39,140 nucleotides of DNA from an uncultured Flavobacteriaceae bacterium. GTDB taxonomy: Bacteria; Bacteroidota; Bacteroidia; Flavobacteriales; Flavobacteriaceae. Of this stretch, positions 34,149-39,140 are shown piece by piece; the stretch's first letter is position 1, and every line of letters begins with the position of its first letter. The notes below the pieces were generated by a model. It did not search any database. It saw nothing but the letters and a program-made list of their open reading frames with translations, and was not told where the DNA came from. The translations under genes and the position numbers were made by a program. Location of the stretch: assembly GCA_905182575.1 (NCBI GenBank), contig CAJJCA010000019.1, forward strand, positions 1 to 39,140. Direction: 5' to 3'.

Positions 34149-34320
34149 TCCAAGCTTAAATTTATTTGTGTATAATATACAATTAATACGGATGAACTTT
34201 ATACTACCCTATCTTTTTTAGTATTTTTTCTGTGAATTGCTCCTGCATCGTGCTATATTTAGCTCAATTATTATGAACAAGCAGGAGTAAATTTTGATCA
34301 AAGTCTCCTAATATTTTTAA

Positions 34321-35540
34321 CTAAAAATCAGCCTTTACAAGTGAAGACTTAATATTTAAATACGACATAAGAAATTGATCACCAATAATTGCTTTGTCAG
34401 AGCGTGGATTATCCCTGTTGAAAACCTCTAGATCTTTGCGGTCTAAAACCTTAATAAAACTCTCATTGAGGGTACTTTTCCTGGAATATTTTTAAAGCTT
34501 AAATCAAGGTGTTTTTCAAAAAAAAGATAGGCCGCTTTTCTTTTAGAATAGCCGTAATCATGTTTTTCTAAAGCTAGGTGAACATTCTCTACATTTTCTG
34601 CTTTGCCATAAGCCTCATAAACTTTTTGTATGTAAGGAAATTCAACTTTATCTACGTTTCTTGTCCAGTCATCTCCATCAGAAATTAGTAATAATGGTCT
34701 GGGAGCTGCCAATGCAGCTATTTCTACATTATTGGTTTGATGAAATTCGCTCTTATGAATCGGCATTCCACTTTCACAAACACATCCTCCAAAGAAGTGA
34801 GCAGATACTTGAACAACAGGAATTGCGACCTTTATGCGTGGGTCGATGGCTGTTAAAATAAAAGTTTGAGTGCCACCACCCGAAGCACCTGTCATTCCAA
34901 TTTGCTCTTCGTCCACTTCTGGAAGAGCGGTTAAGTAATCTAAAACTCTCCTTACTGTTCCATGTTTGAAGTAACAATGCAATGGGCATTTTGTGATTAA
35001 TTTGATTGCTTTCTCCATAGCCGACCATTTCATCACTCAATCCACCGCACCCATTCTTGCCATAAAGGCACTCCTTATTTGGACATAATCAGTAAAGCGT
35101 TTGTTTGCAAGATGACCGTGAGGAGTCAATATGGCTGGGGATTTCCCTTCAGATTTCAAGGGACGGTATAGGTTTCCGGTGATATAAAAACCAGGAAAAC
35201 TTTCAATGGCAATGTTTTCCACACTATAGCCATCCATTATTTTTTTAGGAGAAATAATTGGATTAAAATTTCCTGAAATCTGAGGCATTTTATTCCATTG
35301 AATACCCTTTATAATGGTTTTTTTAATGATGTCGGCTCTTTCTTCCCACGAGAATTGATCGTTCCATTGGTTTGAAAACGTATCTAACATTTGTTTTCCT
35401 TCAGCCTCAGTCCAATGTTTACCTGTACACAAATCTGGGTTTTCCATGTAGATAAGTCCTTCTTCGGTTTGTACTTTCACTTGCTGCGAAAAGCCATGGA
35501 AACTCAAGGCCAATAGAAAAATTAGAATTTTTTTATTCAT
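34321..35540 (-). CDS. Secreted alpha/beta hydrolase, acetylxylan-esterase/DLH-like, three frameshifts
   Basis: Signal peptide ([15 protein letters not shown]) at 35540. The true protein threads three frames: [14 protein letters not shown] and [10 protein letters not shown] (to about 35040); [27 protein letters not shown] (about 35040-34955); [30 protein letters not shown] onward (GASGGG with the nucleophile Ser), [29 protein letters not shown] (catalytic Asp), [11 protein letters not shown] (catalytic His). A third break near 34465 leads to [16 protein letters not shown] and a natural stop at 34321. The motifs place it in an alpha/beta-hydrolase group related to acetyl-xylan esterases. It lies 173 bp upstream of the PSD1 gene on the same strand. 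Likely removes ester groups from a polysaccharide. Confidence 0.82.
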
Positions 35541-35919: not shown

Positions 35920-35937
35920 AAAGTGGTACCTCCAGTA
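35920..35937 (-). repeat. Putative tRNA 3'-end fragment (second attachment site)
   Basis: Minus-strand reading CTGGAGGTACCACTTTA looks like the T-stem end, acceptor 3' strand (AGGTACC) and discriminator A of a Bacteroidetes tRNA, possibly tRNA-Phe. The T-loop sequence expected upstream is missing. With a terminator 7 bp downstream and phage-like DNA on the other side, it fits a tRNA end regenerated by integration of the right-hand element. The tRNA identity is uncertain. Confidence 0.4.
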
Positions 35938-35988
35938 CTAACACCATTGATTTAACTAACTAGACCTGAATATGTTATATCAATAGAC

Positions 35989-36056
35989 TTTACACAATGT
36001 GTAAAATTATATTCGTTTAGTTTATACATTGTGTAAAGAAATTTCTTCTGTGTAAA
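35989..36056. promoter_or_regulatory. Palindromic operator cluster at the element boundary
   Basis: A perfect 17-bp palindrome TTTACACAATGTGTAAA (35989-36005), a near-perfect one TTTATACATTGTGTAAA (36021-36037) exactly 32 bp later (three helical turns), and a third half-site TGTGTAAA (36049-36056). Regular spacing on one helix face is typical of cooperative repressor operators or recombination accessory sites. Confidence 0.65.
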
Positions 36057-36099
36057 GTTCGTAGAATAACTTAAACCTGAAAGTTTTTTTACTTATTTT

Positions 36100-36307
36100 C
36101 CAATATTTTTTTCGTTTTACCATTCAGGGTTATACTTATACTCAGATAGTAAGATTTATTGATTGTTGGTTTAATAAATTGTTTGAACTATTTAATGAGG
36201 GATTTGGTGGATTGACACCTTTATACCAAATCAGAAACGAAATCCAAAAGGAATCCGAAGACCTATCGTTGAGATACGATGAACTTGGAGGTGGGAAACC
36301 AAAGTAA
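36100..36307 (+). pseudogene. Unrecognised coding fragment, no start
   Basis: An open frame ending at TAA 36305-36307 reads GYTYTQIVRFIDCWFNKLFE, then TPLYQIRNEIQKESEDLSLR. It looks protein-like but lacks an ATG. An antisense frame (36387-36142) is also open; its composition (Ser/Asn/Tyr-rich, no motif) is less convincing. Family unknown. Confidence 0.3.
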
Positions 36308-36480
36308 TCTACATAGAGGATTGGTTGAGAGTAGGAATAGATTGAATAACTACCGTTGTGAACTCCCTTGGAAGTATCACGAAACATCTTAGGGAAAAAC
36401 TAAAAAGTTTCCTTAAGGTGGATTGTATCCTCTTTGGAAGTATAATTATAGTTATAGTTAGAAAAGTTTGAATAAGAAGT

Positions 36481-36530
36481 TAATAACCTCGAACTGATAA
36501 GTATATATAGTTAGAGGTTAATACATTTAA
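36481..36530 (+). promoter_or_regulatory. Inverted repeat around a -7-like box, upstream of the small basic gene
   Basis: TTAATAACCTC (36480-36490 region) and GAGGTTAATA (about 36513-36522) flank TAAGTATATATAGTTA, a -7-like stretch similar to the TCGTATATT boxes at 38541 and 38811. It lies about 20-45 bp before ATG 36541. Confidence 0.4.
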
Positions 36531-36540
36531 ATTAAACATT

Positions 36541-36735
36541 ATGATATCAAAAATATATAGTTCTAATAAACCATTATTCAAAGTTGGAGAGAGAAAGGGA
36601 CATAGTAAAAAGACCATAGAAAAAATGGTTGAAGAAAGATTAAAAACGAAAAAATCAAAGAAGAACTCAAAACCAATCCCTAAGAAAAAAAAGAAACTTG
36701 ATGAATGGTTTAGGGGTAAGAGAACAAGAAATTAG
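36541..36735 (+). CDS. Small basic protein, hypothetical (phage/plasmid-like)
   Basis: 64 residues, about one third Lys/Arg: KPLFKVGERKGHSKKTIEKM, then a run of KKSKKNS, PKKKKKLDEWF, ending RGKRTRN. Preceded by the A/T-rich leader AAATTAAACATT common to starts in this segment. A nucleic-acid-binding role is plausible from charge only; no family recognised. Confidence 0.55.
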   Translation: MISKIYSSNKPLFKVGERKGHSKKTIEKMVEERLKTKKSKKNSKPIPKKKKKLDEWFRGKRTRN

Positions 36736-36791
36736 ATCCTGTAGGATTATATGCTAATTTCTTAATATTTATATAGAAAGGAAAACAAATT

Positions 36792-37305
36792 ATGAAAAGA
36801 ATAAATTTAAAATGTAAAAACTTAAGTCCAAACCAGACGGAGGATCCGTCTCCAAGAATTATCTGGATTCCCTATCTCACAGAGGGATAAGAAAGAGGAT
36901 ATTGACTGAAAACTGTAGGCACGAATATCTACCTATGAAGTATCAGGCGATAGAAATAAGATCCAATCTTCAGTGATTAAATCAATGGGATATTGATGAG
37001 TTGGAAGATGAAGACGAGGTTGACTTAGAAGAGATTCTTAAAGAAATGGGGTATTCTGATGAAGAAGAAGAAGATTTGAAACCATGTGATGTTATGAACA
37101 TCATCAGACGAAGGAATTACAATCCATTCTAGATGAGTTAGAGGATGATTCCGTTAACGAATTCAATTCACCATCTAAAGGATACAAAGAAGGAAGAAAA
37201 CTCGTAGATACTCTTCGTAAAGGGTTGTTCAGAAAGTTCTCTGATGATGATTTAGATGAGTTTATGGATGTAATATCAAACTCATTTAATTTAGTAAGAA
37301 AATAA
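36792..37305 (+). pseudogene. Acidic hypothetical protein, phage-like, broken into frames
   Basis: ATG 36792 has an AAAGGAAAA motif 7 bp upstream. Its own frame stops after 32 codons, but strong coding character continues: SKNYLDSLSHRGIRKR and LPMKYQAIEI in a second frame to a stop at 36978, the same frame then reading WDIDELEDEDEVDLEEI and MGYSDEEEEDLKP, and finally a third frame TKELQSILDELEDDSVNEF, GRKLVDTLRKGLFRKFSDDD to TAA 37303-37305. It appears to be one or two acidic proteins (~170 codons in total) disrupted by indels. No family recognised. Confidence 0.4.
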
Positions 37306-37342
37306 CTGAAAAACTATTAGACAGTATATATTGCTGGGAGAT

Positions 37343-37493
37343 ATGTTTACTAAAAGAGATTACGAACAAAATCCGAATCAAGAATCACACAAATGGAAAC
37401 AAAAAGAAGGTTCTATCTTGTGATGATATAATCTTTACTAATGGGTTAAGAGAAATCGGATTTGATGAATGGATATCATTAGAATACAATTAA
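37343..37493 (+). pseudogene. Small hypothetical protein, frameshifted
   Basis: ATG 37343 reads MFTKRDYEQNPNQESHKW and stops at 37420. A shifted frame continues SCDDIIFTNGLREIGFDEWI to TAA 37491-37493. One missing base near 37415 would give ~50 residues. Function unknown. Confidence 0.35.
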
Positions 37494-37515
37494 CACTTAA
37501 AAGGAAATTAAAACT

Positions 37516-37689
37516 ATGTCAGAAAGATTATCAATCGAAGAATTAAAGAAAATTTACGGAGTTACTGAAAGAACTCTGAACACTTGGAAGAAAACTAAAT
37601 CTCTTCCATTATTACAAATATCCTCACAACACAAATACATCTATAAAGATGATTTGATGAAGTGGGAGAAAAGTTTTATCCACTCGTAA
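37516..37689 (+). CDS. Helix-turn-helix protein, excisionase/AlpA-like
   Basis: 57 residues: MSERLSIEELKKIYGVTERT, NTWKKTKSLPLLQ, YIYKDDLMKWEKSF. The order of an initial helix, a GVTERTLNTWKK recognition helix, a short beta-hairpin containing the SLPLLQ segment and KYIYKDDLMKW is that of MerR-fold excisionase/DNA-binding domains (HTH_17 type). AAAAGGAAA precedes the ATG by 8 bp and a good terminator follows (37713-37748). It is the only DNA-binding gene seen in the right-hand mobile segment and could be its excisionase or repressor. Confidence 0.7.
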   Translation: MSERLSIEELKKIYGVTERTLNTWKKTKSLPLLQISSQHKYIYKDDLMKWEKSFIHS

Positions 37690-37712
37690 TTTAGTTACTT
37701 TTCATCGGAGAG

Positions 37713-37748
37713 AGAGGGTTATCATTTAGTTGGTAATCCTCTTTTTTT
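37713..37748 (+). terminator. Rho-independent terminator after the HTH gene
   Basis: AGAGGGTTA (37713-37721) pairs with TAATCCTCT (37734-37742; one G-T pair), followed by T7. It lies 24 bp after the HTH stop codon and also separates it from the convergent minus-strand gene. Confidence 0.8.
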
Positions 37749-37749
37749 G

Positions 37750-38025
37750 TTACCACTCATATCTCTTATCACCCATCTCCTTACTCCACTCAATTACTGA
37801 TGAAAAGGAATGTTTCCCTTTGAAGAATTCTTTCCAATTAGAATGGAATACGTGATAACGAACATAAGTTGAGTAAATAACTCTTAGTTCATCCTTTACA
37901 TACTCAATTGGTTCTTTATTCCAATCTTCTTTGTAAAGATTACTTATCTCAGTTCTTACATCAACCTCACTACCTACGTGAAGATTTCTTGATACATCTT
38001 TTGTTCTAAGATAGACACACGTGTA
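37750..38025 (-). pseudogene. Unrecognised protein, C-terminal part, no start seen
   Basis: A 91-codon open stretch on the minus strand reads VYLRTKDVSRNLHVGSEVDV, then EDWNKEPIEYVKDELRVIYS, and ends SSVIEWSKEMGDKRYEW. Charged, with no signal or TM. It is bounded upstream by TGA at 38026-38028 and has no plausible start codon; the upstream coding frame appears lost through an indel. Probably co-transcribed with the minus-strand gene at 38108. Confidence 0.45.
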
Positions 38026-38107
38026 TCAAAGTCGGGGTTTCCCCTTAAATGTTGTTTGGTTTCTTAAATCTTGTTTACTTCCTTTCTTACCACTCTCATA
38101 ATCCTCC

Positions 38108-38479
38108 TTATTCTTTAGAATCTTTAAAAGTACGAACTTGAAAACCAATAGATATATTAAACTGAAAATCATCAGAATATTTTTGAACACCTTCATATCC
38201 CTTTACCATTTTAACTTTCCATCCTACACTTTCACCTAAACCTTTAGAATCATCACCATTGATTTGAAGTTTCTTACTCTTGATTTTATCTTTCAGTTTA
38301 GAGATTTCTTCCTCCCATTTCTTAATCTGAACCTTTCCGTTAAACATATAACGATGGTTATCCCTATACTTCTTATAGTTCTCTCTTTCCTTTGGTTTAA
38401 GTGAATCAAAAACCTCAGTTGGTAGATATTCTAAAAAGAACTTCTCCCCTTTACTACGATACTCTTTTTTTCTCTTCAT
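38108..38479 (-). CDS. Hypothetical charged/coiled protein of the mobile segment
   Basis: From ATG 38479 the product has 123 residues: MKRKKEYRSKGEKFFLEYLP, KPKERENYKKYRDNHRYMF, a short Lys/Glu-rich coiled segment (IKKWEEEISKLKDKIKSKK), and a beta-like C-terminus (DDFQFNISIGFQVRTF). The frame is open to TTG 38512, but that start would lie inside the inverted-repeat promoter at 38495-38533, so ATG 38479 is preferred. No family recognised. Confidence 0.6.
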   Translation of the reverse strand: MKRKKEYRSKGEKFFLEYLPTEVFDSLKPKERENYKKYRDNHRYMFNGKVQIKKWEEEISKLKDKIKSKKLQINGDDSKGLGESVGWKVKMVKGYEGVQKYSDDFQFNISIGFQVRTFKDSKE

Positions 38480-38494
38480 ATGTAAGGATTTATA

Positions 38495-38551
38495 TGTGGT
38501 GGTATCAGACAAATGTAGTGAAATACTACCACACTTACACTCGTATATTGT
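38495..38551 (+). promoter_or_regulatory. Inverted-repeat promoter cassette, copy 1
   Basis: TGTGGTGGTAT (38495-38505) and ATACTACCACA (38523-38533) form an inverted repeat with one mismatch. The right arm continues as CACTTACACTCGTATATTG, matching copy 2 at 38763. TCGTATATT resembles a Bacteroidetes -7 region. It sits between the divergent gene at 38479 (minus) and the small gene at 38623 (plus), with a ~75-nt leader containing a GAGG/CCTC hairpin. Confidence 0.7.
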
Positions 38552-38622
38552 TATTGTATTTGAGGGGTGAGGTTTTCCTCCTTCGTTTTGAAAAGTGAGA
38601 ATCAGTATTAAAATTAAAGATT

Positions 38623-38742
38623 ATGTATTACGAATTAACAGAAGAAGAAACTCAATTTATTATTAGTTGTATTCAAACATCAAAATACCTTCTTGATGAA
38701 AAGAATGAAAAGATTATTGAATCAATCGTGAGTAAATTCTAA
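38623..38742 (+). CDS. 39-residue hypothetical protein
   Basis: ATG 38623 to TAA 38742: MYYELTEEETQFIISCIQTS, KYLLDEKNEKIIESIVSKF. Predicted as two amphipathic helices. Leader TTAAAATTAAAGATT is like that of 38880 and 36541. Lies between the two copies of the inverted-repeat promoter. Too short to assign a function. Confidence 0.5.
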   Translation: MYYELTEEETQFIISCIQTSKYLLDEKNEKIIESIVSKF

Positions 38743-38762
38743 AAAAATTTGAATAAAACTAA

Positions 38763-38821
38763 AGTGGTGGTATCACTAAAAAAACAAACTAATACCACCA
38801 CACTTGTGTTCGTATATTAGT
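38763..38821 (+). promoter_or_regulatory. Inverted-repeat promoter cassette, copy 2
   Basis: Perfect 10-bp inverted repeat GTGGTGGTAT (38764-38773) / ATACCACCAC (38792-38801), then ACTTGTGTTCGTATATTAG. Same order and spacing as copy 1, 269 bp downstream. Followed by a ~60-nt leader with a GAGGT/ACCTC hairpin (about 38830-38848) and the gene at 38880. Confidence 0.75.
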
Positions 38822-38879
38822 AAGGTAATGAGGTTAAGGTTTCACCTCTTAAAGAAACTTAATTAAAATAGAAATTAAA

Positions 38880-39140
38880 ATGGGTTTTAGAAGTTTGATT
38901 ATTAGTGGAGTTCCAAAAGAGGAAATGGAAAAAGGTTTTGAGATTATTCCCAAAAGAGAAGTGGAGTGAAATCGTTGAGAAAGATGGAATGATTTTCTGT
39001 AAAAACGATATGAATTGGAAATGGTATGGAAGTTATGATATGGTGAATCGTTGGAATGAGTTTATGAGTGAATTGGAAGAAAAATATGAGGATGAGGGAT
39101 TCTTTACTATGGTTATAGGTGAAGATGGAGGAATGGATTA
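38880..39140 (+). CDS. Hypothetical protein, partial at window end, frameshifted
   Basis: ATG 38880 reads MGFRSLIISGVPKEEMEKGF and stops at 38969. Another frame continues without stop to the window edge: PKEKWSEIVEKDGMIFCKND, WKWYGSYDMVNRWNEFMSEL, GFFTMVIGEDGG. One extra C in the CCCAAAAGAG stretch at about 38950 joins them. Rich in Trp and acidic residues, typical of small phage or plasmid proteins of unknown function; the C-terminus is outside the window. Confidence 0.5.

Follow-up and report, generated by a model that had tools for sequence, protein, structure and literature searches.

Near the right end of a contig from an uncultured member of the Flavobacteriaceae, the same composite site occurs twice: a 10-bp inverted repeat followed, at a fixed distance, by a box resembling a -7 promoter element. 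The locus raises the question of whether these sites are regulated promoters and, if so, what acts on them and how far the regulation extends. The initial annotation proposed an element-wide regulon that also included a third, weaker site and a nearby helix-turn-helix (HTH) protein. Here, combining direct reading, shuffle tests and comparison with same-genus genomes, viral contigs and phages, we trace which parts of this proposal stand and outline how the two sites may work.

Results

An element integrated at tRNA-Phe

The window (the whole stretch of DNA analysed, 39,140 nt) is the entire contig C19 of a 1.97-Mb draft genome in 29 contigs. Gene content and the phage match described below point to a Flavobacteriaceae-like member of the Bacteroidota. 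Two same-genus genomes are 93-96% identical to it as far as 35547 (G012) or 35553 (G004), and the ~200 bases beyond have no match in the compared stretches. From 35754 the window matches a second G004 contig (C53) at 86%, and this match stops at 35935. In G004:C53 the tRNA-Phe gene is intact (L047:1427-1500) and lies between two chromosomal genes. Because the similarity covers only 13 bases of the tRNA-Phe 3′ end, we read the segment from 35936 to the contig end as an element integrated in this gene, for which G004, judged by sequence comparison, represents the empty site. The description of the segment as mobile is thereby upheld and given a left junction (Table 1). Just inside it lies an inverted repeat, CTTTACACAATGTGTAAA / TTTATACATTGTGTAAAG, that is a candidate pair of integrase arm sites.

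The chromosomal flank beyond tRNA-Phe and the second junction were not found in the draft genome, and the contig stops at 39140. The element fragment shows no integrase or ParB_N gene, unlike the sibling islands described below, and no structural, packaging or capsid-remodelling genes were recognised with confidence in nine ORFs or peptides of the window or in seven sibling pieces. Frameshifted-looking ORFs at 33.4, 35.0, 36.8-37.3 and 38.9 kb would reflect error or decay. In G012, a relative of the HTH protein lies ~1 kb from an intact tRNA-Phe, and the 64-codon ORF of the element is not among the ORFs of at least 50 aa listed there.

Several smaller differences were seen along the window. 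About 145 bases at 34164-34309 are absent from G004 and G012, and the adjoining 34309-34762 is 99% identical to contig C10 of the same genome (G000:C10:3642-4095), through duplication, insertion or an assembly join. The 36 bp at 36069-36104 belong to a small dispersed repeat, with 86% identical counterparts in G000:C5, G004:C30 and G012:C2, and 36792-37302 is related, in fragmented form, to a gene of contig G002:C18 (L023:9818-10215) whose frame is still open where that contig stops.

Table 1. Coordinates of the features discussed, numbered along the window
Feature	Position	Strand	Remarks
tRNA-Phe(GAA) 3′ end, left junction (attL)	35923-35935	-	13 bases, identical to G004:C53
Inverted repeat CTTTACACAATGTGTAAA / TTTATACATTGTGTAAAG	35988-36038		94% complementary, just inside junction
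AACCTC-N23-GAGGTT around TATATA box	36485-36519	+	before 64-codon ORF
64-codon ORF	36541-36735	+	after AACCTC cassette
HTH_17/MerR-like protein	37516-37689	+	57 aa
Divergent gene	38108-38479	-	123 codons, no family; opposite in direction to copy 1
Copy 1 inverted repeat GTGGTGGTAT-N17-ATACTACCAC	38496-38532
Copy 1 left arm GTGGTGGTAT	38496-38505		then 17-nt spacer
TACATTTG, TAnnTTTG -7 box for divergent gene	38510-38517	-	in copy 1 spacer
Copy 1 right arm ATACTACCAC	38523-38532
Copy 1 ACTT	38533-38536
Copy 1 -7 box TCGTATATT	38541-38549	+
Gene 3′ of copy 1	38623-38742	+	39 codons
Copy 2 inverted repeat GTGGTGGTAT-N18-ATACCACCAC	38764-38801
Copy 2 left arm GTGGTGGTAT	38764-38773		then 18-nt spacer
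Copy 2 right arm ATACCACCAC	38792-38801
Copy 2 ACTT	38802-38805
Copy 2 box TCGTATATT	38810-38818	+	-7 box as TTCGTATATT, 38809-38818
Gene 3′ of copy 2	38880-39140	+	two overlapping frames

Two composite sites beyond chance

The left arms of the two copies start 268 bases apart and the right arms and boxes 269; the distance from right arm to box is equal in both, and the arm spacer differs by one base. Conservation between the copies is confined to the arms, ACTT and the box (left arm 10/10, right arm 9/10, ACTT 4/4, box 9/9); elsewhere the identity is 0/4 in the N4 segment, 5-6/17 in the spacer, and 8/30 and 10/30 in the upstream and downstream flanks. The right half, ACCACACTT-N4-TCGTATATT, has two matches in the window, both exact, whereas 100 shuffles scanned with up to three mismatches yielded a mean of 0.05 and never two matches. 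Likewise, 200 dinucleotide shuffles of the 3.2-kb element, made with a custom, approximate shuffler, produced no pair of inverted repeats with a common arm. Direct reading and shuffle tests thus bear out the annotated positions of both copies and place their occurrence beyond chance. No third copy of the exact pattern was found in the 29 contigs of the genome, a draft of 70.7% completeness. The idea of an element-wide regulon is accordingly not supported by the two copies in this draft, from whose assembly the remainder of the element is absent, the contig ending 322 bases past the copy 2 box.

Relatives combining the same arms with the box were not encountered in any collection scanned. In viral contigs, the exact motif had six matches, all with ATACAACCAC on the right and all in frames of at least 388 codons, and none had TCGTATATT within 200 nt. 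In 84,980 species there were four matches, with no TCGTATATT in the surrounding 8 kb; two of the four fall within long frames (667 and 902 codons) that have an ATG ahead of the match. At L027:4220-4257, in an unrelated genome, the GTGGTGGTAT...ATACCACCAC arms fall in a 396-codon frame just before its first ATG and so are probably upstream of a gene, and at L029:5888-5923, in an unrelated Bacteroidetes draft, the same arms form a long hairpin with extended arms in a 60-codon frame; each pair may represent an independent operator or hairpin. Among 299 family genomes, which include three of the 22 same-genus genomes (the window's and two others), only the window's own carries the motif and the other 298 have none. 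Over a set of 202 loci it occurs in 18, solely the window's copies and the viral and species matches already given. With arms and box unmatched as a combination in these scans, the arms stand without phylogenetic support. Relatives of the neighbouring proteins were absent from viral contigs and, in 22 genus genomes, confined to the window; we found no DNA similarity of the window to phages and plasmids and no Rfam match at gathering scores. The archaeal element of PMC12324425 is unrelated.

A phage promoter box without its -33 zone

The box has a clear counterpart in viruses. In a 48-kb viral record (G341), TTCGTATATT occurs nine times, on one strand and always 5′ of an ATG (at 17-34 nt in eight cases, at 99 nt in the ninth), against once per strand for a backward control of the box; these nine promoter-like sites lie within frames of 19-128 codons. 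The record encodes a tail sheath, which shares 53% identity with the sheath of Flavobacterium phage vB_FspM_immuto, as well as a tail tube, a UvsX-like recombinase and a ribonucleotide reductase. In immuto itself, all five TTCGTATATT boxes in the 80 of 160 kb examined (two 40-kb parts) are gene-directed and sit just 5′ of annotated starts. Over 81 virus loci among the matches listed (L076-L157, L053 and L054, minus L082, L097 and L109, which repeat G341; some of the loci lie on a common contig), 409 of 437 distinct sites have the ATG of an ORF of at least 30 aa within 120 nt, at a median of 26 nt, compared with 39% of random positions having such an ATG. By its position, therefore, TTCGTATATT serves large contractile-tailed viruses, the cultured phage immuto among them, as a promoter box, and the promoter role assigned to the box downstream of the inverted repeat gains support from this placement in phages.

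The form common in G341, TTCGTATATTNAAGTATAA, is found in at least 120 stretches in the viral contig scan. At L076-L157, L053, L054, L201 and L202 we observed a recurrent, promoter-like combination of TTCGTATATT with a GAnTTGG zone and an AAGTATAA tail, the tail counts being biased because the virus locus set was chosen for that tail; this combination looks usable as a promoter signature of these viruses. Some viral TTCGTATATT sites also have a GC-rich hairpin before the box, with the -33 zone in its loop. Judging by titles, none of the papers listed for the TTCGTATATT box concerns it or its use as a phage promoter. A scan of viral contigs for the right half, ACCACACTT-N3-5-TCGTATATT, returned two related contigs that represent one orthologous promoter, which we do not count as shared ancestry because such a match is, by our estimate, about what chance could give in so large a collection. 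The gene after that promoter was tried as uvsX and rejected, its PHROGs matches being to DnaB-like and RecA-fold ATPases.

The four same-genus genomes searched, of 22 (G000, G004, G012 and G019), hold ten copies of TTCGTATATT, eight of them inside stop-to-stop frames of at least 118 codons, frame length being a rough criterion of placement. The two outside such frames are copy 2 and the promoter of an integrase gene in G019, both in tRNA-integrated elements; copy 1 reads CTCGTATATT and is outside this count. The backward control, counted over both strands, is commoner than the box (8 vs 3 in G000, 7 vs 1 in G012, 9 vs 3 in G004 and 9 vs 3 in G019). The G019 integrase starts 23 nt after TTCGTATATTAG, a site whose -33 zone is also poor (-2.2).

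Phage sites share an upstream zone whose consensus, GAnTTGG, lies at approximately -22 to -16 relative to the box; in a leave-one-out analysis of 606 distinct sites from 121 loci among the matches listed, 87% scored above the 95% shuffle level. Judged against these phage sites rather than host start sites, copy 1 scores -8.9 and copy 2 -3.2, compared with a phage mean of 5.7-5.8 and about -5 for shuffles, and only 4 and 10 of the 606 listed sites fall below copies 1 and 2, respectively. Both sites thus lack the -33 zone, and in its place stands the right arm of the palindrome, which ends 11 bases before TATATT. The lack is a matter of degree, since only 232 of 617 phage sites among the matches listed contain a strict TT[TG]G between -23 and -13. 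Of the Bacteroidota sigma-A motif TAnnTTTG (PMC9723704), the copies' TATATTGT (copy 1) and TATATTAG (copy 2) retain TAnnTT only. The motif TAnnTTGY (SM5), attributed in PMC9723704 to a second class of sigma factor in F. psychrophilum, is matched by TATATTGT and not by TATATTAG. With the flavobacterial -7 box spanning -12 to -5, as given in the same paper (PMC9723704), the predicted starts would be 38556 and 38825 and the centres of the repeats would lie at -42 and -42.5.

Genes and leaders around the two sites

Copy 1 lies in a divergent promoter region, as annotated: its spacer holds, on the minus strand, the exact TAnnTTTG match TACATTTG, which would leave the divergent gene a 26-nt leader if +1 lies 12 bases on, near 38505, and the only other minus-strand TAnnTTTG of the element is at 36555. 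The product of the divergent gene has weak matches to PHROG (E 0.0062) and Pfam (E 0.015) families and to NCBIfam bla-B1-FLAV (E 0.00055; 19.5 bits for a cut-off of 450), and its structure model is unusable (pLDDT 38.6); by position only, it is a candidate regulator.

Downstream, the expectation of a tiny gene after each site holds at copy 1 and is doubtful at copy 2, where the frame from the ATG at 38880 closes after 29 codons (38880-38969) and an overlapping frame from 38905 is open to the contig end. The GAGG/CCTC hairpins that had been described in the two leaders are not supported: their predicted folding is indistinguishable from that of shuffled sequence (z -0.20 and +0.67). The copy 1 leader hairpin (38562-38580) is one of two terminator-like sites in 36000-39140, compared with 1.2 in shuffles, in a scan that covered loops of 3-8 only and is blind to the 17-18 nt loops of the inverted repeats.

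A separate AACCTC cassette and its HTH protein

The AACCTC site had been taken for a third, weaker variant of the composite site. Its arms are unrelated to those of copies 1 and 2, and its box lies between the arms, not downstream of them. This cassette has two relatives in C10 and one in G019, and a 64-codon ORF and an HTH gene come after every one of them; the relatives read AACCTCGAACT...AGTACGAGGTT, with AGTACAAGGTT in the second C10 copy. In the sibling stretches L014, L015, L023, L024, L046 and L049, no GTGGTGGTAT...ATACYACCAC was found at up to two mismatches per arm. Because the AACCTC relatives stand in stretches without GTGGTGGTAT sites, the supposed three-site regulon resolves into two unrelated cassettes. 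A pattern built from the sibling cassettes, which omits the window's own copy with its shorter spacing, was recovered from 2 of 22 genus genomes and not from any viral contig. The 64-codon ORF of the window has no Pfam or NCBIfam match, and its best PHROG match has E 0.56.

The HTH protein follows the AACCTC cassette rather than the composite sites. It matches Pfam HTH_17 at E 8.5e-5 and 23.2 bits, under the cut-off of 27, and is 35-40% identical to HTH proteins of the sibling elements. Its structure model (pLDDT 84) has weak Foldseek matches, none reaching E<=0.001, to RdfS, Pukovnik Xis, the GIsul2 excisionase and BldC. We found no relatives of the window's HTH protein in phages or of the C10 HTH protein in plasmids. 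Because its relatives adjoin the AACCTC cassette in siblings without GTGGTGGTAT sites, we assign the protein to that cassette, probably as either an excisionase or the cassette's regulator. Its proposed role as regulator of the composite sites is not supported, on these grounds and on the excisionase/MerR kind of its model, itself drawn from weak matches.

The sibling islands have features of their own. On C10, two cassette copies, 93% alike over 1.17 kb, lie beside two tRNA-Pro(ggg) genes, and L014:8988-17050 together with L015 shows successive integrative elements at these genes, with further ~107-bp repeats that have a palindromic 30-bp core. In G019 (L024, contig C3), a 15-bp repeat of a tRNA-Met end at L024:9549 and 14854 bounds 5.3 kb carrying the AACCTC cassette, the 64-codon ORF, the HTH gene, a cation efflux gene, a ParB_N-DNA methylase gene and a tyrosine integrase gene; L024:9549-14930 is apparently a complete 5.3-kb island at tRNA-Met. 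By eye, a block of ~250 nt before the cassette region is alike in L023:9500-9740 (G002) and L014:9340-9600 (C10), and is possibly an attachment region or an RNA.

Discussion

The two composite sites are likely to be promoters of a mobile element and to be regulated. The reading that we favour, tentatively and at slightly less than even confidence, is that the palindrome is an activator site and that the copies are two operator-promoters of one small regulon in the tRNA-Phe-integrated element. We infer that a dimeric or paired DNA-binding protein sits on the repeat: with a phage-type -7 box, (T/C)TCGTATATT, that lacks its -33 and has the right arm of the 10-bp inverted repeat standing there, such a protein would replace the -33 contact and recruit RNA polymerase, and the two small genes would be activated together. 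Binding at copy 1 would in addition place this protein over the divergent -7 box, silencing the gene that the box serves and turning the site into a two-way switch. A position near -42, where the repeats are predicted to be centred, is that of an activator touching RNA polymerase. Against an activator stand the arms, which at 27-28 bp centre to centre and with a spacer changing by one base are unusual for a rigid dimer, as well as the restriction to two copies with no relative of the same arms and box in the scans. A box without a -33 could also serve as a weak constitutive promoter.

Palindromes around or just 5′ of -7 boxes are usual for the repressors of mobile elements, and the same sites might thus be operators at which a dimer silences both promoters until induction, the promoters being weak and independent of any activator. 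We consider this possible although rather unlikely: the box itself is intact and copy 1 overlies the divergent -7 box, but a strong repressed promoter would be expected to retain its -33, which is absent in both copies, and the repeat, ending 11 bases before TATATT, does not overlap the -7 box. The hairpin might instead be an upstream terminator or RNA element that forms a cassette with the promoter and is shuffled with small genes, like the PeSLs of T4-like phages. GC-rich hairpins are often found 5′ of the same box in phages, a repeat score of at least 14 being reached by 23 of 617 sites among the matches listed and by none of the 617 when each is shuffled once, and copies 1 and 2 score 14 and 16; copy 2, moreover, begins 21 nt after a stop codon, and as single-stranded DNA its hairpin beats 200 of 200 shuffles (z -4.24) and that of copy 1 187 of 200 (z -1.77). 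This explanation is nevertheless improbable to us, given that neither repeat is followed by a run of T (ACTTACACTC, ACTTGTGTTC), that the loop is 17-18 nt, and that the sequence of the arms is kept while that of the loop is not, a terminator having no need of arm conservation. Copy 1, lying between divergent genes, has no upstream co-directional gene to terminate, and many of the phage hairpins listed hold the -33 zone in their loop, which copies 1 and 2 do not.

Two explanations would make the promoter boxes incidental or the sites functionless. The mobile context, and the ability of two direct copies 269 bp apart to exchange, would suit recombination or replication sites of a lox/dif-like or iteron-like kind; this is very unlikely, however, as the distance to the promoter box is fixed in both copies, spacer lengths differ, which site-specific recombinases seldom tolerate, and candidate arm sites are found elsewhere, near the tRNA junction. 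A functionless origin, by chance or by recent tandem duplication, could be argued from the presence of only two copies near a contig end with frameshifted-looking ORFs, but shuffles do not reproduce the sites, and arms and box are kept where the similarity of flanks and spacers is down to background; we regard it as the least credible of all. A more speculative variant, to which we give only a small chance, is that the element senses an infecting phage by joining the helper's -7 box, which in the four same-genus genomes searched escapes long frames only in elements of this kind, to a palindrome in place of the -33: because the palindrome replaces the -33 box, the promoters would fire only with a factor made or induced by the phage. 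If the activator reading holds, the locus would provide a compact switch from uncultured Bacteroidota, in which the control of phage and island genes is little known, and would connect islands with a promoter box found repeatedly in large flavophages.

Comparison with known systems places these sites among several partial likenesses. Phage immuto and its kin share the (T)TCGTATATT box but possess the -33 zone and the AAGTATAA tail that copies 1 and 2 lack. In T4 middle promoters (PMC2988021) the -10 is kept, and a phage activator box takes the place of the -35 at a distance of 12 +/- 1 bp on the upstream side. With the right arm 11 bases before TATATT, the sites here agree with this MotA/AsiA arrangement in activator-box geometry, and in geometry only: the MotA box is a single short TGCTTtA for a monomer, in contrast to a 10-bp inverted repeat, and TGCTTtA is absent from both sites as read. 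PeSLs of T4-like phages are, according to PMC4503421, recurring modules of stem-loop and promoter that shuffle genes; a promoter directly 3′ of a stem-loop, repeated before small genes, is found here too (in two copies), but without a T run after the repeat and in a tRNA-integrated element instead of a T4-like genome. The haloarchaeal tailed virus HGTV-1, which PMC3950731 compares with PeSLs, has a TATA-box-like region and an inverted repeat before many ORFs, and thus many copies in an archaeal virus compared with two in a bacterial island. Closer to home, the C10 and G019:C3 islands share with the window's element a junction within or next to a tRNA gene, the AACCTC cassette, the 64-codon ORF and the HTH gene, and differ in having an integrase and a ParB_N gene and, in the stretches examined, no GTGGTGGTAT...ATACYACCAC.

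The late promoters of P2 and its satellite P4, served by Ogr/delta, are likewise phage-activator-dependent promoters with a two-part site. They are common to helper P2 and satellite P4, and the P2 activator site lies further upstream than the palindrome here. The P2 late consensus TGT-N12-ACA, given in PMC3931495, is absent on direct reading of 38496-38549 and 38764-38818. The phage-sensing reading, if true, would nonetheless make the present element a Bacteroidota counterpart, in a small tRNA-integrated island, of the piracy of promoter specificity known from P4 and P2.
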